From NCBI GenBank assembly GCA_024640585.1, contig JAHEEQ010000125.1, positions 1 through 8,717 of the forward strand: a DNA stretch of 8,717 bases, read 5' to 3'. The translations under genes were made by a program, and so were the position numbers. This DNA is from Micrococcales bacterium. Its GTDB lineage: Bacteria; Actinomycetota; Actinomycetes; S36-B12; UBA5976. A model generated the notes under the pieces. That model did no database searches, was not told where the DNA came from, and saw only the letters and a list, made by a program, of their open reading frames with translations. Positions 1,963-8,717 of the stretch are shown one piece after another. Each line of letters opens with the position of its first letter. The stretch's first letter is position 1.

Positions 1963-2403
1963 TTACTGAGCAAAGCCATCTCGCAGCTTGTTGGCGGCAG
2001 CGTCAATCTGTGTGTCCAACTCTCCGTTAAGAACAGCAGTTTTGATTAGCTCCAATGTTGGCACCAAGTCCTTTTCCGTGCCAACTTCCACTGAGACTTT
2101 GCCCTTGGCAAGTTCCAGCACTCGGGTGCCATAGCGCACTGACAAAGCCAGTTTACCTGCGTCCGTGACAAACCACCAAGGCTTGACTCGCTTGGGCGTT
2201 TCCACTTGTCTGCGTATGCCAGTGTCGTTTTCCACGACACTTCGGAACTTGATGGGTGCGAATGTGGTACCTGCTTGGTGGGCTCGGGCTAATTCACATT
2301 GCTCCCACAAGCGTTTTACCAGCTTGTTGCGGCGAACTTGTACGGCGGGAATGTCAGCGGGTTTTGCAGCTGCGCTGAGTTTGAGAGTTGATAGTGTAGC
2401 CAT
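1963..2403 (-). CDS. DUF6641-type small protein of mobile islands
   Basis: A 146-residue protein that I recognise from memory as resembling the DUF6641 family, found in proteobacterial islands, phages and plasmids; the function is unknown. The start at 2403 has AAGGA at 2411-2415 (minus strand) 7 nt upstream and gives the family-like N-terminus MATLSTLKL; a longer in-frame ATG at 2484 would add 27 residues with no ribosome site. Visible blocks are RRNKLVKRLWEQCELA, GTTFAP.KFR, PKRVKPWWF and VRYGTRVLELAKGK. There is no signal peptide or membrane segment, and the many Lys/Arg residues suggest a nucleic-acid or protein contact role (inference). Residues 55-61 (SVVENDT) are encoded by one copy of the 21-bp palindrome, at a place where I would expect variable sequence. 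Another copy lies in its leader at 2505-2525. It diverges from the non-coding stretch on its right. Confidence 0.8.
   Translation of the reverse strand: MATLSTLKLSAAAKPADIPAVQVRRNKLVKRLWEQCELARAHQAGTTFAPIKFRSVVENDTGIRRQVETPKRVKPWWFVTDAGKLALSVRYGTRVLELAKGKVSVEVGTEKDLVPTLELIKTAVLNGELDTQIDAAANKLRDGFAQ
2221..2241 (-). repeat. 21-bp palindrome, copy A (inside the DUF6641-type gene)
   Basis: Read on the minus strand: left arm AGTGTCGT, centre GGAAA, right arm ACGACACT; both arms perfect (8 bp). It is identical to copy D at 6327-6347, and the identity extends a few bases on each side. It is in frame with the gene and encodes SVVENDT (residues 55-61). Confidence 0.9.
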
Positions 2404-2504
2404 GTGCTTTTCCTTTCTGATGTTGATAAAGCACAGGTAATTTTGTTGTCGAGTGGGGTGGAAGAGCAACCAGAGTCCGTTCATATTGGCGGGTCATTGG
2501 TCAA

Positions 2505-2525
2505 GGTGTCGTTTTACACGACAGT
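2505..2525 (-). repeat. 21-bp palindrome, copy B (leader of the DUF6641-type gene)
   Basis: Read on the minus strand: left arm ACTGTCGT, centre GTAAA, right arm ACGACACC; six inner arm pairs are intact and the two outer positions are changed. It is non-coding, about 100 nt upstream of the start codon at 2403 and in the same orientation as that gene. A TTGACC lies just downstream of it on the minus strand, so it may sit at the promoter. Confidence 0.85.
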
Positions 2526-2577
2526 GATGTGCGTAATTCCGCTGAAATTTCCAACATATCTGCGCATCAATGTCTTA

Positions 2578-2600
2578 TTCGTATAAATAAGTTATACGAA
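2578..2600. repeat. recombination-site-like inverted repeat (9-bp arms, 5-bp spacer)
   Basis: TTCGTATAA at 2578-2586 and its exact inverse TTATACGAA at 2592-2600 flank ATAAG. Short inverted arms around a 5-8 bp spacer are the layout of core sites of tyrosine recombinases, and the arm resembles those of loxP and of XerC-type half-sites (CGTATAA). A tyrosine recombinase gene lies 1.4 kb to the right. It may equally be an operator or the first hairpin of the non-coding RNA region. Confidence 0.45.
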
Positions 2601-2609
2601 ACAAGATGA

Positions 2610-2990
2610 AGGTTGCACGCCGATTGAACTGTGCTGCTAAGTCCGTTCTGATGTGAGACGGTAAAGAAGGTGTAGCTTGTTGCACTGATTCATTGCACTA
2701 CCCCGCAAGGGATGCTTTAAACGACTTTCGTTCCAGAGAGTAACGTTTGCAATGTCTTACAAGTTGAAATCAAGCACGATGTGCTTGAGAAAAAGTGAGT
2801 GGGAGGCCACGCTCGTAAGAGTACCCCACAAGGCACGAACAATGGCTGCTGCATAAGCCGTTCGTTGCTAGCGTAAGGACACGCACATAAAAGGAGATCG
2901 CAAAACCTGCCTTTCCCAGTTCAATCTGGTTGTGCATATGCAGTATGAATCACCTCAGTGAATGTCGCCGCGCCGCTAGGCGTGGCATAT
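2610..2990 (+). ncRNA. candidate large structured non-coding RNA
   Basis: Between 2404 and 3139 I see no convincing gene, but the plus strand is packed with complementary arms. The best domain is 2673-2766: an outer helix UAGCUUGU (2673-2680) with ACAAGUUG (2759-2766, two wobbles), an inner helix CATTGCA (2691-2697) with TGCAATG (2748-2754), and inside these a CCC-GCAA-GGG hairpin (2702-2711, GNRA loop) and a stem AACG-ACUUUC (2720-2729) with GAGAGU-aa-CGUU (2736-2747). Other hairpins: 2643-2661 (CCG/CGG plus UCU/AGA), 2770-2788 (8 bp, loop GAT), 2799-2829 (GTGGG/CCCAC enclosing GCTC-GTAA-GAGT, GNRA loop), 2835-2865 (ACGAAC/GTTCGT plus GGCT/AGCC), 2916-2929 (CCAG/CTGG), 2967-2986 (8 bp, loop GCTA). 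GNRA loops and wobbles favour the plus strand. I cannot match it to a known class; group I/II intron, RNase P and tmRNA signatures are not seen. Ends are approximate. Confidence 0.5.
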
Positions 2991-3097
2991 GGATTCCTAG
3001 TGAATATCTCAAGATTAATTAGTTCATCTTAAGCATGAATCTAATAAAAATATGCAGTTGAAATTAAGCGAAGGCTGAGCCTGAAGCGCAATGAGAA

Positions 3098-3118
3098 CTG
3101 CGGTTCGCAGAGCGAACC
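3098..3118 (+). promoter_or_regulatory. two overlapping alternative hairpins before the HTH-like gene
   Basis: CTGCG-GTT-CGCAG (3098-3110) and GGTTCGC-AGA-GCGAACC (3102-3118, 7-bp perfect stem) share bases and cannot form together. The second ends 9 nt before the ribosome site AAGGA (3128-3132) of the gene at 3140. As RNA this could be a translation switch; as DNA the 17-bp palindrome could be an operator for the HTH-like protein itself. Confidence 0.4.
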
Positions 3119-3139
3119 ATACATATGAAGGAATATTAA

Positions 3140-3502
3140 ATGAGTTTTACACAACAAATATATGCACACTTATGTGCATCAATGCCCAACATGACAGCAA
3201 GAAAATTTAGCAGTTATTGCGGAATGAGTGAAGGGTATTTCGGAAGCATCACTGCACAAGGACTGGAGATATCGACAAATGCACTATTTCATCTGGCAGA
3301 AGTAATAAATCAACACAATCGGAAAAGCTCATCACTGGAACTGCATAGGTCTATCGACATGATGGCAACTGAAATTGCAAGACGAATGCAAGACATGCCA
3401 ACAGCAAGTCATGTCATTCGAAAGCAAGTTATTGGCGCTCTTGGAATTGCATATGCTCAGAAAGATTTTGAATTTTCTGCTCCTCCAGTTTTAATTGGTT
3501 GA
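3140..3502 (+). CDS. small helix-turn-helix-like protein (DUF6626-like)
   Basis: A 120-residue protein with no signal peptide or membrane segment. Residues 19-56 (TARKFSSYCGMSEGYF...STNALFHLAEVI) follow the spacing of an XRE-like helix-turn-helix: a helix with FSS.YCG, a turn, a recognition-like helix GYFGSITAQG, then a third helix starting NALFHLAEVI. The pattern 'FS..yLG.s.sYf..l...g' recalls small DUF6626-type proteins of mobile elements (from memory, not checked). The C-terminal half is helical with no recognised motif. AAGGA at 3128-3132 is a good ribosome site 7 nt before the ATG. Likely role: DNA-binding regulator or site-specific DNA-binding accessory factor of the island (inference). 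A 17-bp palindrome sits directly upstream and would suit self-regulation. The next gene starts 10 nt after its stop. Confidence 0.7.
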   Translation: MSFTQQIYAHLCASMPNMTARKFSSYCGMSEGYFGSITAQGLEISTNALFHLAEVINQHNRKSSSLELHRSIDMMATEIARRMQDMPTASHVIRKQVIGALGIAYAQKDFEFSAPPVLIG

Positions 3503-3512
3503 AGGGGTAGAA

Positions 3513-3692
3513 ATGAAAGTAGAAGAAATTGTTGGCATCAAGCCACTAAAACCTTTAGACCCTGCTCAAGCACAGGTTGATTCGCTGAAAAGGCAAGAAA
3601 AGCAATTAGCAACAACCGTCAAAGTGACAAGGGCTCGCAAAGCAATCGCAAAAAAGCGCCAGCAACTTGCAAAGCTTACTCAGCCTACATAA
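3513..3692 (+). CDS. 59-residue basic coiled-coil protein, unknown function
   Basis: A short, very basic protein (about a quarter Lys/Arg). I chose the Met at 3513 because AGGGG at 3502-3506 lies 6 nt upstream; an in-frame ATG at 3495 would overlap the previous gene. Residues 1-18 contain IVGIKPLKPLDPAQAQ, and from about 19 to 55 the sequence is one long amphipathic Lys/Gln/Ala-rich helix (VDSLKRQEKQLATTVKVTRARKA...). No domain is recognised. Its position just behind the HTH-like gene suggests a two-gene operon and a nucleic-acid-binding or protein-bridging role, but that is a guess. Confidence 0.6.
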   Translation: MKVEEIVGIKPLKPLDPAQAQVDSLKRQEKQLATTVKVTRARKAIAKKRQQLAKLTQPT

Positions 3693-3984
3693 CTAAGCAT
3701 TAATCAAAGCTATGCGCTGCGATCTTCACTCTTCAGCAACCTGAGTAGCTGGCGCTATTGAAAAACGCTACAGGGCTGTTTAAAACTTTTTACTCAGCTT
3801 AGTTGTGGCGCATCTCCCACATCACGCCGGAAACTAAATCACCAAAGAAAATTACTATTTTCTTAACCGCGTTGATTTCATTGATGATTTTTAACCCGAT
3901 AAGTTATCGGGTTTCAGGTCGCGGAAATTTGTGTAAGAAAACACACTTGTGCATGCGTTTTTATTTAAGAAAGTGAAAAACGAG
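3693..3984. other. gene-free, palindrome-rich stretch before the recombinase
   Basis: No open frame here looks real. The right half holds three inverted repeats: AAGAAAAT/ATTTTCTT (3845-3852 and 3857-3864, loop TACT), CCGCG/CGCGG (3867-3871 and 3920-3924), and nested inside it AACCCGAT/ATCGGGTT (3893-3900 and 3906-3913, centre AAGTT). The last has no T-run after it on either strand, so it is unlikely to be a terminator; it is 8-5-8 bp, the same geometry as the dispersed 21-bp palindromes but with different arms. Its centre ATAAGTTAT also occurs in the inverted repeat at 2578-2600. It may be a binding or crossover site for the recombinase. In the left half I see only weak short complementarities (for example TAGC near 3747 and GCTA near 3767). 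Confidence 0.5.
3893..3913. repeat. 21-bp palindrome upstream of the recombinase gene
   Basis: Perfect 8-bp arms AACCCGAT and ATCGGGTT around AAGTT; the pairing can be extended to 10 bp with a 1-bp centre. It lies 72 bp before the recombinase start codon at 3985. Candidate operator or recombinase binding site. Confidence 0.5.
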
Positions 3985-4551
3985 ATGTCACAAGCAAAAA
4001 CACTCACACCAGCAGAACTAGAGCAAGTTCTAACTTACATCGATAGGCAAAATTTCGCTCTGCGAAATCGAGTGATGTTACTAACTGGAATGTGGTCTGG
4101 TATGCGGGTATCAGAAATTGCCAGTCTCAGCGTAGGCGATGTCATGAACGCTAACGGTTCAGTCAAAGCCGAAGTGAGACTTTCAGCTGCGCAAACCAAA
4201 GGGCGCCATCCACGCACTGTATTTTTCCCAGAAAAGCTCAGAGTCGAACTACAACATTATTTAAATCAACGAAATCCACTAAATCTAAAACACCCGCTTT
4301 TCATCACTGCAGGACACAGAGGATTTACAGCCAATGTAATGACACAACATTTTTATTGGCTTTTTAAGAAGGCGGGTATTGATGGTGCAAGTAGTCACAG
4401 CATGCGCCGTAGCTTTATCACCAATCTAGCCTCCAAAGGTATTGGAGTTCGTGTCTTAGCTAGTTTGGCAGGACACAGAAGTATTGCAGTCACCCAACGC
4501 TACATTGATGTCCATGATGATATGAAGCGTAATGCAGTAGAGCTAATTTGA
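3985..4551 (+). CDS. minimal tyrosine recombinase (catalytic domain only)
   Basis: A 188-residue tyrosine recombinase that cuts and rejoins DNA through a covalent 3'-phosphotyrosine. All catalytic residues are present: Arg41 in SGMRVSE, Lys72 in TKGRHPR, His138 and Arg141 in HSMRRS, His164 in LAGHRS and nucleophile Tyr173 in TQRYID. So it should be active. There is no N-terminal core-binding (SAM-like) domain; the length is that of FimB/FimE invertases or integron-like mini integrases rather than the usual 300-400 residues. I use the Met at 3985 (MSQAKTLTP, the typical domain start); an ATG at 3949 would add 12 unlikely residues. Its last 9 bases overlap the end of the convergent 313-residue gene. 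The palindromes at 2578-2600 and 3893-3913 are candidate sites. It could invert a nearby segment or mobilise the island. Confidence 0.9.
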   Translation: MSQAKTLTPAELEQVLTYIDRQNFALRNRVMLLTGMWSGMRVSEIASLSVGDVMNANGSVKAEVRLSAAQTKGRHPRTVFFPEKLRVELQHYLNQRNPLNLKHPLFITAGHRGFTANVMTQHFYWLFKKAGIDGASSHSMRRSFITNLASKGIGVRVLASLAGHRSIAVTQRYIDVHDDMKRNAVELI

Positions 4552-5484
4552 GGATGATGCTTTCTTTTTGTTCTTTTCAATCCAAGCTTCTTTGTATTCT
4601 CTACTCCACTTTGCGTTCAACTTCAATCGCATCGCTAAAGCCTCATATTTAAACTCAGCGCAATCAACTGGTTCTGTACATGGAAATTTTCCACGAGCGG
4701 CGTTCTCAGCAATTAATTCAAATCGCTTTAGTGCTCGGTGTGTAATTTTCCCCATGATTATTCGATCATCCATTTCGATTGCATCATGTGTTTTCCTTTC
4801 TGCAGTTGGATTAAGTACGCTAGAGTAACTGCTACTTAAACGCGCTTTCGCTCCGAGTCTCCACAATTCCCAATTTGGCTTTGCAGCTTTAAACCACAGA
4901 AGTCGTATGCCTTTAACCATTGCATTGATATGAAATCGCTTACCCATTAATTTAATTTTGGGTTGTTCATTTTTTCCAATATCTTTGTGTATGTGCTCGT
5001 CCAATAGATTGCGAAACTTCTTGAGTATTTCACTCCTCTTCAATCCGAGTGGTATTGAAACTATTAATGCCGCCGACAGTCCCTCTGCTTGACGAGCTTC
5101 AACGTAACTGGACTTAAGTGATTGACTTATTTTTTCAACTTCAGTTGACTCTCCATTTTCAATAAGAGCAATTTGATGCAACTTGGGCTTGTTGTATGGA
5201 TTGCCAAACACATGCAATCCACGCTTTAGCCACCATTGACGAAAAAGAATGCAGTTCACATTGCCGAGCAAGTCGTATGTGGCAAGAACCTTATCGAAGT
5301 CCTGTGGCAAGTTTTCCGATTCCTCTTTTGTGAGTTTGTTTGCTCTTGCTTTTCTTGCTAATTCATAGCTTGGACTGAGAACCAAAAATTCAAACATTAA
5401 TTGGTAAGCCGCAGTTGGTTCGGTGTGCCATCCTGATTGCGAAAAATCGCCACCTCTCATACTCCAAGGTAATTTTTTTTGCAT
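4543..5484 (-). CDS. 313-residue island protein, unknown function
   Basis: I have a faint memory of relatives next to recombinase genes in proteobacterial islands but know no function or domain. It is soluble and basic, with no signal peptide or membrane helix. The N-terminal part has SMRGGDFSQSGWHTEPTAAYQLMFEFL.LSPSYELARKARA, then FRQWWLKRGLHVFGNP. The middle contains a Ser/Ala/Leu-rich segment (LSAALIVSIPLGLKRSEILKKF), which may contact DNA, and the C-terminus ends in a Lys-rich tail (EKNKKKASSSN). Start: the ATG at 5484 has no clear Shine-Dalgarno; the Met at residue 9 (5460) is an alternative beginning at the better-looking MRGGDF. The tail-to-tail 9-nt overlap with the recombinase suggests the two genes travel together, so a recombinase partner or directionality factor is possible (inference). 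Confidence 0.7.
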   Translation of the reverse strand: MQKKLPWSMRGGDFSQSGWHTEPTAAYQLMFEFLVLSPSYELARKARANKLTKEESENLPQDFDKVLATYDLLGNVNCILFRQWWLKRGLHVFGNPYNKPKLHQIALIENGESTEVEKISQSLKSSYVEARQAEGLSAALIVSIPLGLKRSEILKKFRNLLDEHIHKDIGKNEQPKIKLMGKRFHINAMVKGIRLLWFKAAKPNWELWRLGAKARLSSSYSSVLNPTAERKTHDAIEMDDRIIMGKITHRALKRFELIAENAARGKFPCTEPVDCAEFKYEALAMRLKLNAKWSREYKEAWIEKNKKKASSSN

Positions 5485-5490
5485 ATAAAT

Positions 5491-5539
5491 TTCAACAAAT
5501 AATTTGTAGTATTTGAATTATATAAATTAATTTGTTGAA
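5491..5539. promoter_or_regulatory. inverted repeat in a divergent AT-rich promoter region
   Basis: TTCAACAAAT at 5491-5500 is repeated exactly inverted as ATTTGTTGAA at 5530-5539, with 29 bp between, in the 155-bp gap between divergent genes starting at 5484 (-) and 5640 (+). The gap is very AT-rich and holds TATA-like boxes (near 5519-5526, and GATAAT at 5545-5550) but no good -35 box that I can place. Spacing between arm centres is about 39 bp, close to four helical turns, so two dimers or a looped complex could bind and control both genes. Confidence 0.5.
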
Positions 5540-5589
5540 TTACAGATAATTCATACATCGCAGCAACAAACACTAAAAAAGTTGAAGCG

Positions 5590-5614
5590 ATGGCCGCAGC
5601 GGTGCGGTCTCCAT
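5590..5614 (+). promoter_or_regulatory. leader hairpin before the 284-residue gene
   Basis: ATGG-CCGCA (5590-5598) pairs with TGCGG (5603-5607) and, across a TCT bulge, CCAT (5611-5614); loop GCGG. It ends 11 nt before the ribosome site AAAGGAG (5626-5632). It could stabilise the leader or tune translation. Confidence 0.35.
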
Positions 5615-5639
5615 TAACCAGCATTAAAGGAGAATCCAA

Positions 5640-6494
5640 ATGCAAACAAATACCTCTATCGTTACTTCCTCAGTATCTACAACAGCTACAAACGGCTCAG
5701 AGCTTGCACAGTCTATGGCTACGAGTGTCGTGCAAAACGACACTGCAATTGCCACAGCAAAAGCTGGTGAAAGCGTTCGCAATCATTTTGAGCTACTCGC
5801 AGTTGAACGTGAAGCTTGGGAAAGCACGGTGCATCGCACAAACAATGAACAGTTGTATGTCTTATTGCAAAAGTGTTACCAAACTTATAAAGCGATGTCT
5901 GGCGCAGAAGATGAAGCCGGCAATCTTCGCAAAGGATTGACTGACTACATCAACACAAAGGGTTACAAGTTCAACGCAGGCACTCATACGCTGGTAAAGA
6001 TTGTCAAATGCGTCTTTGGTGCAGACCGACGTCGAGTCAGTGCATACGGCATCGTGTTGCGTACGGCTCTCGCTAAAGACGTCTCTATTGCTGATATCCC
6101 CGACTTCATCAGCAGCCAAGGTGGCGTTGAAGAAATTCGATTGGCAAAAGCCCCCAATGCAATGACTACAAAACAGAAAGCCGCCATGGGTGCACAAGTT
6201 GTGCAGAACGTAAGTATGGGCGTATTTTCAAGTAGCGCACTTGGCAGCAAGATCGACGCTGGAAATATTGGCAAAGCTGTTGTGCTTATTGGTACTTGGC
6301 AAGCTGACGGCAGCGTCATTGTTCGAAGTGTCGTGGAAAACGACACTGCGGTGAATGCAGCTTTGGCATGTCACTACAGCGCTAATAAGGTCGAAGTTAA
6401 AGAAGCTGCAGCTCAAGTACAGGCAGCTAACGACGAGCAAATCAAGCAAGACGCTATTACAGAAGCTGTACAAGCCGCTGTGGTCAATGCCTGA
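5640..6494 (+). CDS. 284-residue island protein, unknown function
   Basis: The start has a strong AAAGGAG 7 nt upstream. I think similar proteins occur on betaproteobacterial plasmids and islands, but no function is known to me. No signal peptide or membrane segment. Order: a low-complexity Ser/Thr/Ala N-terminus (1-45) carrying SVVQNDT (29-35); a helical middle with NLRKGLTDYINTKGYKFNAGTHTLVKIVKCVFGADRRRVSAYGIVLRTAL, basic and possibly DNA-contacting; EEIRLAKAPNAMTTKQKA; then a more beta-like part GKAVVLIGTWQADGSVIVRSVVENDTAVNAALACHY (SVVENDT at 230-236) and an Ala/Gln-rich C-terminal helix. Both SVVxNDT stretches are encoded by copies of the 21-bp palindrome, so one gene carries two. It ends 8 nt before a very strong terminator, so it may be highly expressed as a single-gene unit. 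Confidence 0.75.
   Translation: MQTNTSIVTSSVSTTATNGSELAQSMATSVVQNDTAIATAKAGESVRNHFELLAVEREAWESTVHRTNNEQLYVLLQKCYQTYKAMSGAEDEAGNLRKGLTDYINTKGYKFNAGTHTLVKIVKCVFGADRRRVSAYGIVLRTALAKDVSIADIPDFISSQGGVEEIRLAKAPNAMTTKQKAAMGAQVVQNVSMGVFSSSALGSKIDAGNIGKAVVLIGTWQADGSVIVRSVVENDTAVNAALACHYSANKVEVKEAAAQVQAANDEQIKQDAITEAVQAAVVNA
5724..5744 (+). repeat. 21-bp palindrome, copy C (N-terminus of the 284-residue gene)
   Basis: Left arm AGTGTCGT, centre GCAAA, right arm ACGACACT; perfect arms. In frame, encodes SVVQNDT (residues 29-35) within a low-complexity N-terminal region. Confidence 0.9.
6327..6347 (+). repeat. 21-bp palindrome, copy D (C-terminal part of the 284-residue gene)
   Basis: Left arm AGTGTCGT, centre GGAAA, right arm ACGACACT; perfect arms and identical to copy A on the other strand. 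In frame, encodes SVVENDT (residues 230-236). Confidence 0.9.
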
Positions 6495-6502
6495 ACCATA
6501 AC

Positions 6503-6529
6503 GGGCAGCAATTTTGCTGCCCTTTTTTT
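6503..6529 (+). terminator. strong Rho-independent terminator
   Basis: GGGCAGCA (6503-6510) pairs perfectly with TGCTGCCC (6515-6522) around ATTT, followed directly by seven T (6523-6529). Ends the 284-residue gene's transcript; the ATPase operon starts 35 nt later, so it needs read-through or its own promoter. Confidence 0.93.
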
Positions 6530-6563
6530 ATTTCAATATTTTTATCAAGAAAAGGACTACCCC

Positions 6564-7289
6564 ATGTGGAACCCTAAAGACTTTGAAACAACCTACAGAC
6601 CTAAATTAATTAATGACATTGTTTTCCCAAACGAGCAGAGTAAAACTTTGATTGAGCAACTTGTATCAGGCAAGCGCCCATTCCCAATTCCAGAAGGCAA
6701 ATGTGGCATTTTGCTCCACGGAATCCCAGGCACAGGAAAAAGCGCACTCGCAAAGCTGTTGCCAGACGCGATGGAGTTACAACGCAGTGGAACAGATGCC
6801 CAACAAGACACCCTTTATGTTCGAGTGCAGCAGGGCAATAATGGTGTCAAGCTGTTGGAGAAGATTGATTCCAACGCACGGCTTTACCCCATCAGCGCAA
6901 GCCATCATTACTACATGCTTGACGAGGTAGATAACCTGAATGATCAGGCAATGAAGATGCTGAAGTCTGTGATGAACGTTCCTGGTTGCGTGTTCATACT
7001 AACTACAAATAACTTCACTGACATTGAGCCAGGCGTCATCAGTCGTTGTCATTGCATTGGATTCAATGCTGCACCCGCGAGCAGTTGGCTTCCATTGGCG
7101 CGGCGTATTTTGAGCGATTCTGGCCTGACGGGTATCAGTGATGAGCAGTTGCTGGCAGTTATTGAGACAGGCAAAGGTAGTGCGCGAGATATTTTGGATG
7201 CATTAATTAGTGTCGTGTTAAACGTCACATCTCATGCTGGCAATACGCAATCCGCTATCGAAAGACGGCTTATCAAGGTGATGTTATGA
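6564..7289 (+). CDS. clamp-loader-like AAA+ ATPase
   Basis: A 241-residue AAA+ ATPase most like the ATPase core of sliding-clamp loaders (RFC small subunit, DnaX). Seen: YRP..I.DIVFPNE near the N-terminus (residues 11-24), Walker A GIPGTGKS (53-60), Walker B YYMLDEVD (116-123), sensor 1 TTNN (147-150), SRC (160-162, the arginine-finger triplet of clamp loaders) and sensor 2 Arg208 in GSARDIL. So it should bind and split ATP in a ring or arc. It lacks the C-terminal collar domain of true loaders, so it is a stripped-down version. Residues 216-222 (SVVLNVT) come from palindrome copy E. AAGGAC lies 6-11 nt before the ATG. The stop overlaps the next gene by 4 nt. A phage- or plasmid-type replication, partition or defence ATPase is possible; the substrate is unknown. 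Confidence 0.85.
   Translation: MWNPKDFETTYRPKLINDIVFPNEQSKTLIEQLVSGKRPFPIPEGKCGILLHGIPGTGKSALAKLLPDAMELQRSGTDAQQDTLYVRVQQGNNGVKLLEKIDSNARLYPISASHHYYMLDEVDNLNDQAMKMLKSVMNVPGCVFILTTNNFTDIEPGVISRCHCIGFNAAPASSWLPLARRILSDSGLTGISDEQLLAVIETGKGSARDILDALISVVLNVTSHAGNTQSAIERRLIKVML
7209..7229 (+). repeat. 21-bp palindrome, copy E (in the ATPase gene, degenerate)
   Basis: Left arm AGTGTCGT is intact, centre GTTAA, right arm ACGTCACA has two changes from consensus. In frame, encodes SVVLNVT (216-222 of the ATPase), where the usual Asp has become Val through GAC to GTC. Confidence 0.8.
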
Positions 7290-7573
7290 CCAAGTACACA
7301 TGGGCGTGGTCTGATGAGGACGAAACTTATATCAATAAAGCTGATTCGCTTTTTGAAATTTTAGACATTGTTCTTGACTGCTATTTATGGGATGACGAGC
7401 AATACACTATCACTGAACTCAATGGAAAATTTTCAATAACTATGTCAATGGAAAACGAACTAGTCGAGTATGAAGTTAATTCATGCCCCTGCGAAGTAAG
7501 TAAGTTCCTACACATTATGGCGAGACTCGAAGATCGTCCCGATACTTTTGCCATCTGTGCCATATCAGAATAG
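7286..7573 (+). CDS. 95-residue acidic protein coupled to the ATPase
   Basis: Not recognised. Starts at the ATG of an ATGA overlap with the ATPase stop, a sign of translational coupling and of a shared job. The protein is strongly acidic (WSDEDETY, WDDEQY, MENELVEYE) with alternating strand-like stretches (YTITELNGKFSITMSM) and ends ARLEDRPDTFAICAISE. No signal peptide, membrane helix or metal motif. The acidity suggests a partner or inhibitor of a DNA-binding protein, possibly a DNA mimic, or a subunit of the ATPase (inference). A hairpin terminator follows after 24 nt. Confidence 0.7.
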   Translation: MTKYTWAWSDEDETYINKADSLFEILDIVLDCYLWDDEQYTITELNGKFSITMSMENELVEYEVNSCPCEVSKFLHIMARLEDRPDTFAICAISE

Positions 7574-7597
7574 CAATGCCTTGTTGCTAGAAACTTC

Positions 7598-7622
7598 AAT
7601 CCCGCCACTTACTGGCGGGATT
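7598..7622 (+). terminator. terminator of the ATPase operon
   Basis: A perfect 10-bp stem, AATCCCGCCA (7598-7607) with TGGCGGGATT (7613-7622), loop CTTAC, followed by GCTTTG. GC-rich stem with a short T-run, placed 24 nt after the stop at 7573. Confidence 0.75.
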
Positions 7623-7649
7623 GCTTTGCGATGTAATCTGTTAATCTCG

Positions 7650-7666
7650 CTCTACACAAGGTAGAG
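7650..7666. repeat. small inverted repeat after the operon terminator
   Basis: CTCTAC (7650-7655) and GTAGAG (7661-7666) around ACAAG; shortly after, GGATTT (7668-7673) pairs with AAATCC (7691-7696). The 180-bp gap between converging genes (7574-7754) holds only these and the terminator at 7598. No T-run; role unknown. Confidence 0.35.
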
Positions 7667-7754
7667 TGGATTTATACGTAAAAAAGATTCTAAATCCATG
7701 CGAATTTTGACTTATGGCTTTAGTCCTCTGAATAAATTAAATTTTTCGTCAGAA

Positions 7755-8042
7755 TTAACACCAATTACCTGAAATGTTTAATTCGCAACCTTTTGCTAAT
7801 GTGCGAAAAACTTCTTGAAGATCACTTAAAAATTTTTCTTCATCGGGAATTGCTTTAACGCCCATGTCCGCCATTTCCATAACGGTTGGCAGTTCTTCGC
7901 CGGTTACCGTTTGTGCTAGAGCGAATCCTTCAGGCCATCGCTTTCCCATGTATGCCGCGATGTGGCTTTCCCAGCGATCGTAAAGCCGCTCATTGCGCTG
8001 CGTTATTTCCAATGCTTTCACATACAACAAGTTGTTTTTCAT
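7755..8042 (-). CDS. 95-residue protein, unknown function
   Basis: Not recognised. The start at 8042 has GGAG (minus strand, about 8048-8051) 5-6 nt upstream. Soluble and mostly helical: YVKALEITQRNERLYDRWESHIAAYMGKRWPEGFALAQ, then TGEELPTVMEMADMGVKAIPDEEKFLSDLQEVFRTLAKG. No signal peptide, no Cys/His cluster. A TATAAT box lies about 57-62 nt upstream of the start codon. It lies alone between two convergent/divergent units and points the same way as the integrase, from which it is separated by 145 bp including palindrome copy F. Mobile-element cargo of unknown role. Confidence 0.65.
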   Translation of the reverse strand: MKNNLLYVKALEITQRNERLYDRWESHIAAYMGKRWPEGFALAQTVTGEELPTVMEMADMGVKAIPDEEKFLSDLQEVFRTLAKGCELNISGNWC

Positions 8043-8078
8043 TATGTCTCCACTTTATTTATCCGCATGCAAAAATTC

Positions 8079-8104
8079 TAATCTGATGAGATTAAGTTAT
8101 TATA
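8079..8104 (-). promoter_or_regulatory. putative promoter and operator of the 95-residue minus-strand gene
   Basis: On the minus strand TATAAT lies at 8104-8099; I see no good -35 box at the right distance. Just after it, around the expected transcript start, TAATCT-GATG-AGATTA (8079-8094) is a perfect 6-bp inverted repeat that could be an operator. Confidence 0.4.
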
Positions 8105-8166
8105 AATTTGGAAAAATGGTAAAGCATAGGGTCTATTTCAGGCTACTTACGCTTTCTTGTTGGACA

Positions 8167-8187
8167 AGTGTCGTGTTAAACGACACC
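8167..8187 (+). repeat. 21-bp palindrome, copy F (touching the integrase stop codon)
   Basis: Left arm AGTGTCGT, centre GTTAA, right arm ACGACACC; seven inner arm pairs perfect, outermost changed. It is non-coding and ends exactly where the minus-strand integrase stop codon (8188-8190) begins. If it were read in the same frame as the coding copies it would also give SVVLNDT. Confidence 0.88.
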
Positions 8188-8717
8188 TCACGCTAACTGT
8201 TCCGCAGCCATAGTGGCTGTCAATTTTGAGTAGTGTCGCTCCAACATCACAACTGAAGTGCCCATTTGCCGCGCCAGTGTGTGGATGTCACGTCCAGCCA
8301 GTAATTCTTGCGTGGCATAGGTGTGCCGCAGGCTGTACAGCGTTCTGTCTGTGCCAGCTTGTCCCTTTACCAAGTCCAAGTCCTCCAGCAAGCGCCTAAA
8401 TATCTTGTTCATTTCAAAAGGTTTGCGCTGATCTTGGAACCTGAACAATTTAACGGGCATTCTCAGCGCCAGCAGATCATCCAAATCCATATCAGCTGTG
8501 TCTTGGTGTGTGGCTTGAATCCTTCGCAGCACATCCACGCATTCGTGTTTGGCAATCAGCCACCTTGCGCCTGTCTTGCCTGACACCCATATGCGTAGAT
8601 AGCGCACATCCTTTTCCACATACCACTCAATGTGCTTCCATTCGAGGTTCATTGACTCAGTGCCTTGACGCATTCCTGTCAAAGTCAAAATATCCACCAA
8701 GTCTCGCAGCATCAATC
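8188..8717 (-). CDS. phage/ICE-type tyrosine integrase, C-terminal part (runs off the window)
   Basis: About 176 residues of the catalytic domain of a site-specific integrase; the N-terminal part lies beyond 8717, so no start is visible. Seen: catalytic Arg in LTGMRQGTE, beta-hairpin Lys region SGKTGARW, LYSLRHTYAT (Arg of box II; the usual first His is Tyr here, common in this subgroup), and the nucleophile in ERHYSKLT. A short tail ATMAAEQLA follows. This looks like integrases of genomic islands and prophages of Burkholderiales (recalled, not searched). It differs clearly from the 188-residue recombinase at 3985, so the region has two recombination systems. Palindrome copy F abuts its stop codon, a usual place for attachment-type sites. 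Confidence 0.88.
   Translation of the reverse strand, partial: LMLRDLVDILTLTGMRQGTESMNLEWKHIEWYVEKDVRYLRIWVSGKTGARWLIAKHECVDVLRRIQATHQDTADMDLDDLLALRMPVKLFRFQDQRKPFEMNKIFRRLLEDLDLVKGQAGTDRTLYSLRHTYATQELLAGRDIHTLARQMGTSVVMLERHYSKLTATMAAEQLA

Follow-up and report, generated by a model that had tools for sequence, protein, structure and literature searches.

What reads a 21-bp palindrome that occurs six times in one genomic island? The question is raised by an 8,717-nucleotide stretch of contig JAHEEQ010000125.1 (assembly GCA_024640585.1), analysed whole and called the window here, whose island belongs to a family of mobile elements found in Limnohabitans-like freshwater bacteria. The palindrome is one version of a dispersed dyad of fixed geometry that is bound to the island, is specific in its letters to the lineage and co-varies with two proteins of the element, P284 and an AAA+ ATPase. 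Comparison of sequences leads us to propose, with moderate confidence, that the palindrome is the cognate binding site of P284 working with this RFC-like ATPase.

An earlier note on this DNA, made from its letters alone, had described the six copies, and all were recovered in place, with 0, 2, 0, 0, 2 and 1 mismatches to AGTGTCGT-N5-ACGACACT in order of position. Together with the four core genes of the element they are arranged as follows:

2221 to 2241: palindrome 1, a class A dyad within the DUF6641 gene, encoding RSVVENDTG
2505 to 2525: palindrome 2, in non-coding DNA about 100 bp ahead of the ATG of DUF6641
3985 to 4551, plus strand: TyrR188, a tyrosine recombinase of 188 residues (Phage_integrase over residues 6-178, PF00589, 4.2e-26)
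4543 to 5484, minus strand: P313, no domain in Pfam or PHROGs
5640 to 6494, plus strand: P284, the proposed site reader, 284 residues, no notable structure match
5724 to 5744: palindrome 3, P284 codons 29-35 (SVVQNDT)
6327 to 6347: palindrome 4, P284 codons 230-236 (SVVENDT)
6564 to 7289, plus strand: AAA+ ATPase, RFC small-subunit/DnaX-like, in series with P284
7209 to 7229: palindrome 5, with two mismatches, where the AAA+ gene encodes the C-terminal part of its protein (SVVLNVT)
8167 to 8187: palindrome 6, directly downstream of the large integrase gene

Chance does not account for the copies, as the note had held: exactly 6 sites with at most three mismatches occur in 8717 bp, against a mean of 0.00 in dinucleotide shuffles (0/200), and none lies in the first 2.2 kb, of which the note assigns 1.9 kb to a cytochrome flank. 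The 5-nt centres are those described, provided that the minus strand is read for the copies at 2221 and 2505, and the arms are conserved for the most part, the exceptions being one change within an arm at 7209 and one adjoining the outermost base at 2505. Four of the six palindromes are intragenic (once in DUF6641, twice in P284 and once in the AAA+ gene), all on the coding strand and in one common frame, V-V-x-N-D, which reads V-V-L-N-V at 7209. The two remaining copies have counterparts in related loci (denoted by L numbers; genomes have G numbers): palindrome 2 at a similar place in L112 (6860) and L115 (6809 and 6854), and palindrome 6 on the same side in L116 (12451) and L115 (12211), about 90 bp and about 475 bp past the end of the integrase frame, respectively.

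The association of the exact word with the island could be followed in the genome of Limnohabitans sp. MMS-10A-178 (G004), which harbours L115. All 16 copies of TGTCGTN5ACGACA there fall into two clusters, which measure 14 and 16 kb; the first is a decayed element with integrase and DUF6641 remnants and the second an intact element. This supports the island specificity that had been suggested; the reversed pattern has 0 occurrences, and with the shorter arms GTCGTN5ACGAC, 16 of 18 copies lie within the same clusters. Across the genus, the exact palindrome is present in 19 of 60 genomes searched. The expected co-occurrence with the 284-residue protein was found in part: P284 shares the contig of the palindrome in 4 of the 19 (G004, G018, G053 and G058), and others are cassette arrays or fragments, with a cassette repeat on the contig in five more (G011, G013, G035, G040 and G046) and other element genes or gene fragments nearby in G025, G031 and G037. 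No element gene was seen near the palindrome on G039:C5; these neighbourhoods were inspected in all of the 19 except G027, G029, G033, G052, G061 and G063.

The TyrR188-P313-P284-AAA core also occurs in many elements that have no TGTCGT-N5-ACGACA, and in a large share of them other palindromes are repeated. Their letters differ and their geometry is shared. In 29 element regions (244,888 bp), 51 of 58 well-paired GTC-Nk-GAC dyads (k from 5 to 14, with 5 or more of the 7 possible symmetric pairs in addition to GTC...GAC) have k = 9, and the counts at k = 5, 6, 7, 8, 10, 11, 12, 13 and 14 are 0, 0, 1, 1, 3, 1, 1, 0 and 0; the 51 sites are not all independent, because L183 and L184 are near-identical. 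L182 has a dyad spacing of 10. Dyads of other lineages include TGTCGTTn3AACGACA, TGTCCTTTnAAAGGACA, GTCGGTTnAACCGAC, ATCGTCCn7GGACGAT and AGCGTCGn7CGACGCT. Since these elements have other centres, the GNAA-like loop that had been offered as a feature of an RNA hairpin is lineage-specific. A hairpin is probably a less likely explanation than a protein-binding site.

Positions recur as well as geometry. In 12 of 25 elements, the window included, a dyad falls within codons 1-70 of the P284 frame, with the frame V-xxx-D in all P284-internal cases listed, and several elements have one downstream of AAA. At one position in P313, ahead of a shared WW, L170 has GTCGTTTCAAACGAC and L186 has GTCCTTTCAAAGGAC, each in the letters of its own lineage. 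An element found outside the genus sample, in G375, has TGTCGTTTGAAACGACA in its P284 match at roughly residues 29-35, the place occupied in the window.

The question then becomes which protein changes with the letters. We compared half-site letters with protein distances by Mantel tests. At core-module sites (19 elements, 2000 permutations), the correlation is 0.74 for P284 and 0.78 for AAA, both with the least possible p of 0.0005, and the values for the other proteins are 0.06 for TyrR (p 0.26), -0.09 for P313 (p 0.81) and 0.15 for DUF6641 (p 0.12; 15 elements); this test took sites with three extra pairs or more, some of which are chance dyads, the threshold being at least four in the Mantel tests that follow. 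For sites outside P284-AAA (20 elements), P284 gives 0.50 and AAA 0.56 (p 0.0003), TyrR 0.17 (p 0.08; 19 elements), P313 -0.09 and DUF6641 0.15 (14 elements). On trees, changes of dyad class number 7 on P284, 7 on AAA, 10 on TyrR and 10 on P313, where seven classes make 6 the least possible, the classes were assigned by eye, L197 was omitted and no shuffle control was run. On these correlations and change counts, the dyad follows P284 and AAA together, and AAA the most steadily.

Several observations weigh against P284 as the reader, in addition to the limits of the tree count. (i) P284 and TyrR are inseparable at distant sites. At distances above 700 bp from the module (14 elements), the correlations are 0.53 for AAA (p 0.0003), 0.35 for TyrR (p 0.004), 0.34 for P284 (p 0.007), 0.16 for DUF6641 (p 0.11; 13 elements) and -0.15 for P313; more than 300 bp away (15 elements) they are 0.44 for AAA (p 0.0007), 0.31 for P284 (p 0.006), -0.16 for P313, 0.38 for TyrR (p 0.004; 14 elements) and 0.29 for DUF6641 (p 0.045). 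As TyrR matches P284 there, the module sites may have hitch-hiked with P284-AAA. (ii) No dyad with at least four extra pairs was found in L187 or in L150, the latter having no P284 or AAA match, and L195 has one weak dyad only. (iii) Some contigs with an exact palindrome lack P284, as the 4 of 19 genomes above imply. (iv) The predicted fold of P284 (predicted local distance difference test score 78.0) has no clear structural relative and no recognisable DNA-binding fold; the protein has no Pfam match over the cut-off and no PHROG match, and its profile matched no solved chain at E 1.

The behaviour at distant sites bears directly on what we regard as the nearest rival, in which the dyad, with symmetric half-sites around a short spacer, is the core site of TyrR188, which would invert or swap the P313-P284-AAA block and join cassettes. 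A dyad follows TyrR188 by no more than about 70 bp in 15 of the 24 loci with a TyrR188 match (judged by eye, and counting the spacing of 10 in L182), the window itself having none right behind this gene. The order is TyrR+ P313- P284+ AAA+ in 14 of 21 elements and TyrR+ AAA- P284- P313+ in the other 7, so the block has turned as a unit relative to TyrR; dyads flank it at both ends in L189, L191, L192 and L193. Such an arrangement would suit recombination between dyads, but the trees call for two or three turns only. Palindromes are also present at cassette joints, and TyrR188 has a weak match to tyrosine-type DNA invertases (1.8e-8), though Xer-type families match better (1e-23), both below the cut-off. 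Set against this, TyrR188 proteins about 70-78% identical to that of the window or of L115 pair with different dyad classes (L174, L182, L189, L191, L192 and L196), class A itself takes in a TyrR of 56% identity (L114), the module sites are uncorrelated with TyrR, and many copies lie within element genes. The recombinase-core option of the earlier note is disfavoured by the module sites, and the distant ones correlate with TyrR about as well as with P284; overall we consider it unlikely.

The best fit among the four options that the note had put forward is a binding site for a protein of the island, given that the site letters co-vary with the 284-residue protein and its AAA+ partner; recombination core, RNA hairpin and inserted mobile palindrome are each less likely. 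Partition sites such as the parS sites of ParB are likewise palindromic and dispersed in mobile elements. Pfam showed no ParA or ParB among the ten window proteins, and the partner here is an RFC-like AAA+ protein.

Each lineage has its own version of GTC-N9-GAC, with lineage-specific bases adjoining GTC, and up to eight copies are dispersed over the genes and operon ends of the element, the same dyads standing at neighbouring cassette joints. If P284 and the ATPase do read the dyad, the following scheme could be drawn. P284, perhaps as a dimer, would bind the dyad, and the AAA+ protein would be recruited to it and act there. The dyad may then mark the DNA of element and cassettes as self and, at a guess, control the timing of expression or mobilisation, or both.

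The known behaviour that seems nearest is that of the stoperators of Cluster A mycobacteriophages (L5, Bxb1 and relatives). According to PMC6550527, these are 20-30 dispersed repressor sites with one consensus per lineage, and site distance correlates with repressor distance. The sites are of 13 bp and lie in phage genomes in one predominant orientation. The dyads are alike in being dispersed in the element with lineage-specific letters that correlate with a candidate reader, but the distant sites do not single out P284, and the unlike features are a 21-bp dyad in an integrative element, copies at cassette joints, a reader of no recognised type and its RFC-like AAA+ partner. The parallel also lends itself to another account, transcription control only, in which an element-encoded repressor at operon ends and starts silences the integrated element and the cassette copies are relics. 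Sites adjoin terminator-like hairpins after AAA or TyrR in L114, L170, L171, L182, L189 and L192 (by eye), others lie near the P284 start, and a correlation of site letters with the repressor is seen in the phages too (PMC6550527). We hold this account to be improbable.

The copies at cassette joints extend the problem beyond the element. There the palindrome is often the 3' end of a longer repeat (modelled over 126 positions), which is uneven: its left part varies between copies, and some copies stop short of the palindrome. Within the genus, the model has matches in 21 of 90 genomes. Of 109 matches in the loci examined, 80 were kept after overlapping duplicates and low-scoring matches were dropped, the latter mostly palindrome-only and inside the element or at locus ends, and orientation is uniform within each locus (72 of 72 repeats in 17 loci with at least two). 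Arrays of co-oriented repeats with shuffled segments were observed in L132, L136, L140-L149 and L116, and some arrays start beside tRNA-Met. Segments between repeats reappear in other genomes with different neighbours; examples are one of about 320 bp in six arrays, one 99% identical between L141 and L143, and one of 1.4 kb shared at 83% by L132 and L148. Of nine segment families, five have members that begin directly after the palindrome and two begin directly after CCGTGCTTGTGG, with no palindrome; no common joint was seen in the remaining two. The geometry holds here as well: 21 array loci (267,390 bp), most of them selected for carrying the repeat or the palindrome, have 27 well-paired dyads at spacing 9, in three letter classes, and 0 at the other spacings from 6 to 13.

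Such joints also bear on whether the palindrome is itself a short mobile insert, similar to REP or Rickettsia palindromic elements, that has spread through the island. Copies are many, near-identical and in part intragenic, and a cassette repeat near 6316 of L116 resembles the same site without the palindrome, further repeats stopping before it. Relatives of P284 without the palindrome at codon 230, however, have equal length there, which speaks against insertion and against the mobile-element option of the note, and an insert leaves unexplained the differently lettered dyads at similar positions elsewhere. We consider this origin very improbable.

In their co-oriented repeats between shuffled segments, some of which begin right after the palindrome, the arrays resemble integron cassette arrays. 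They differ in that no integron integrase (TIGR02249) was found over the cut-off in 20 genomes, 15 of them array-bearing (an integrase on a missing contig being possible), that single-strand DNA folding of six repeat copies is unremarkable (z -0.54 to -1.74, with no attC model applied), and that the intervals, up to several kb, hold genes on both strands. A split partial integron-integrase match of 172 bits, below the cut-off, was noted at G088:C33:38046-38611. A bolder proposal, to which we give little credence at present, is that P284, of a fold without known relative, and the RFC-like, clamp-loader-type ATPase read GTC-N9-GAC in an integron-like shuffling without integron integrase; the word would then mark element modules and cassette ends in tRNA-Met-linked arrays, a self-recognition code unlike any described.

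A copy of the 5' half of tRNA-Met adjoins the large integrase in L116 (14075-14195) and L115 (14209-14343). It is probably the attachment site, in the anticodon region, and in this the elements are like genomic islands that tyrosine recombinases integrate at tRNA genes; the dyad lies outside the tRNA copy, and the likeness says nothing about the dispersed dyad. A second imperfect palindrome, AACTTT-N5-AAAGTT, is seen in several L116 and L115 array repeats and recurs a short way upstream of the promoter region of tRNA-Met; it is possibly a recombination core.

Literature searches found no paper on DUF6641, nothing on this element among work on Limnohabitans islands and mobile elements (judged by title and abstract), and none on integron-like cassettes with palindromes or on dispersed palindromes combined with AAA+ and a tyrosine recombinase; nor did they yield a description of freshwater bacteria with gene-cassette arrays, part of which lie beside tRNA-Met. 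That dyads of a single design vary in step with two proteins of the same element suggests a code, not described before, by which a mobile element recognises its own DNA. A dispersed DNA word is here tied to a protein pair without known function, and the seven dyad classes with their proteins offer natural specificity variants for a binding test.

The family can be traced through P284, which has 837 homologues in the protein collection (120 listed); a further search gave 298, which may overlap with these. A genome scan gave five P284-encoding loci, all proteobacterial: L115, two in Comamonadaceae, one in Oxalobacteraceae and one in another proteobacterium. At E 1e-5, P284 is matched in 21 of the 90 genomes from the genus of MMS-10A-178, some of the matches being weak, and at E 1e-15 in 3 of 399 from its family. 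P313 is strongly variable among elements otherwise alike. The remaining features of the window are:

1897 to 1917: a seventh dyad with the GTC-N9-GAC geometry and class D letters, ATCGTCCAGTCACGGGACGAT, past the DUF6641 3' end
1963 to 2403, minus strand: DUF6641 protein (PF20346), 146 residues from its own ATG, in an open frame that reaches 2484
2610 to 2757, plus strand: sub-threshold match to Polynucleobacter-1 RNA (RF01718; 27.4 bits, gathering 37, E 0.0077)
3140 to 3502, plus strand: small protein of 120 residues, with a DUF6626 match below the cut-off
8188 to 8717, minus strand: C-terminal part of the large integrase, truncated by the window end (451 residues in L115)

A second sub-threshold RF01718 match, of 31.4 bits (E 6.3e-5 over the 751 bases searched), lies at 6966-7113 of L112, and none was found in L115 7400-8300. 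Both matches sit upstream of the small 120-residue gene. The orphan Polynucleobacter-1 RNA may belong to this element family, which would perhaps be its host. The seventh dyad is of a class with the letters of another lineage (ATCGTCC-N7-GGACGAT), which occurs at a similar place in L112, L115 (partly decayed), L116 and L132; such dyads are perhaps relics of another element.

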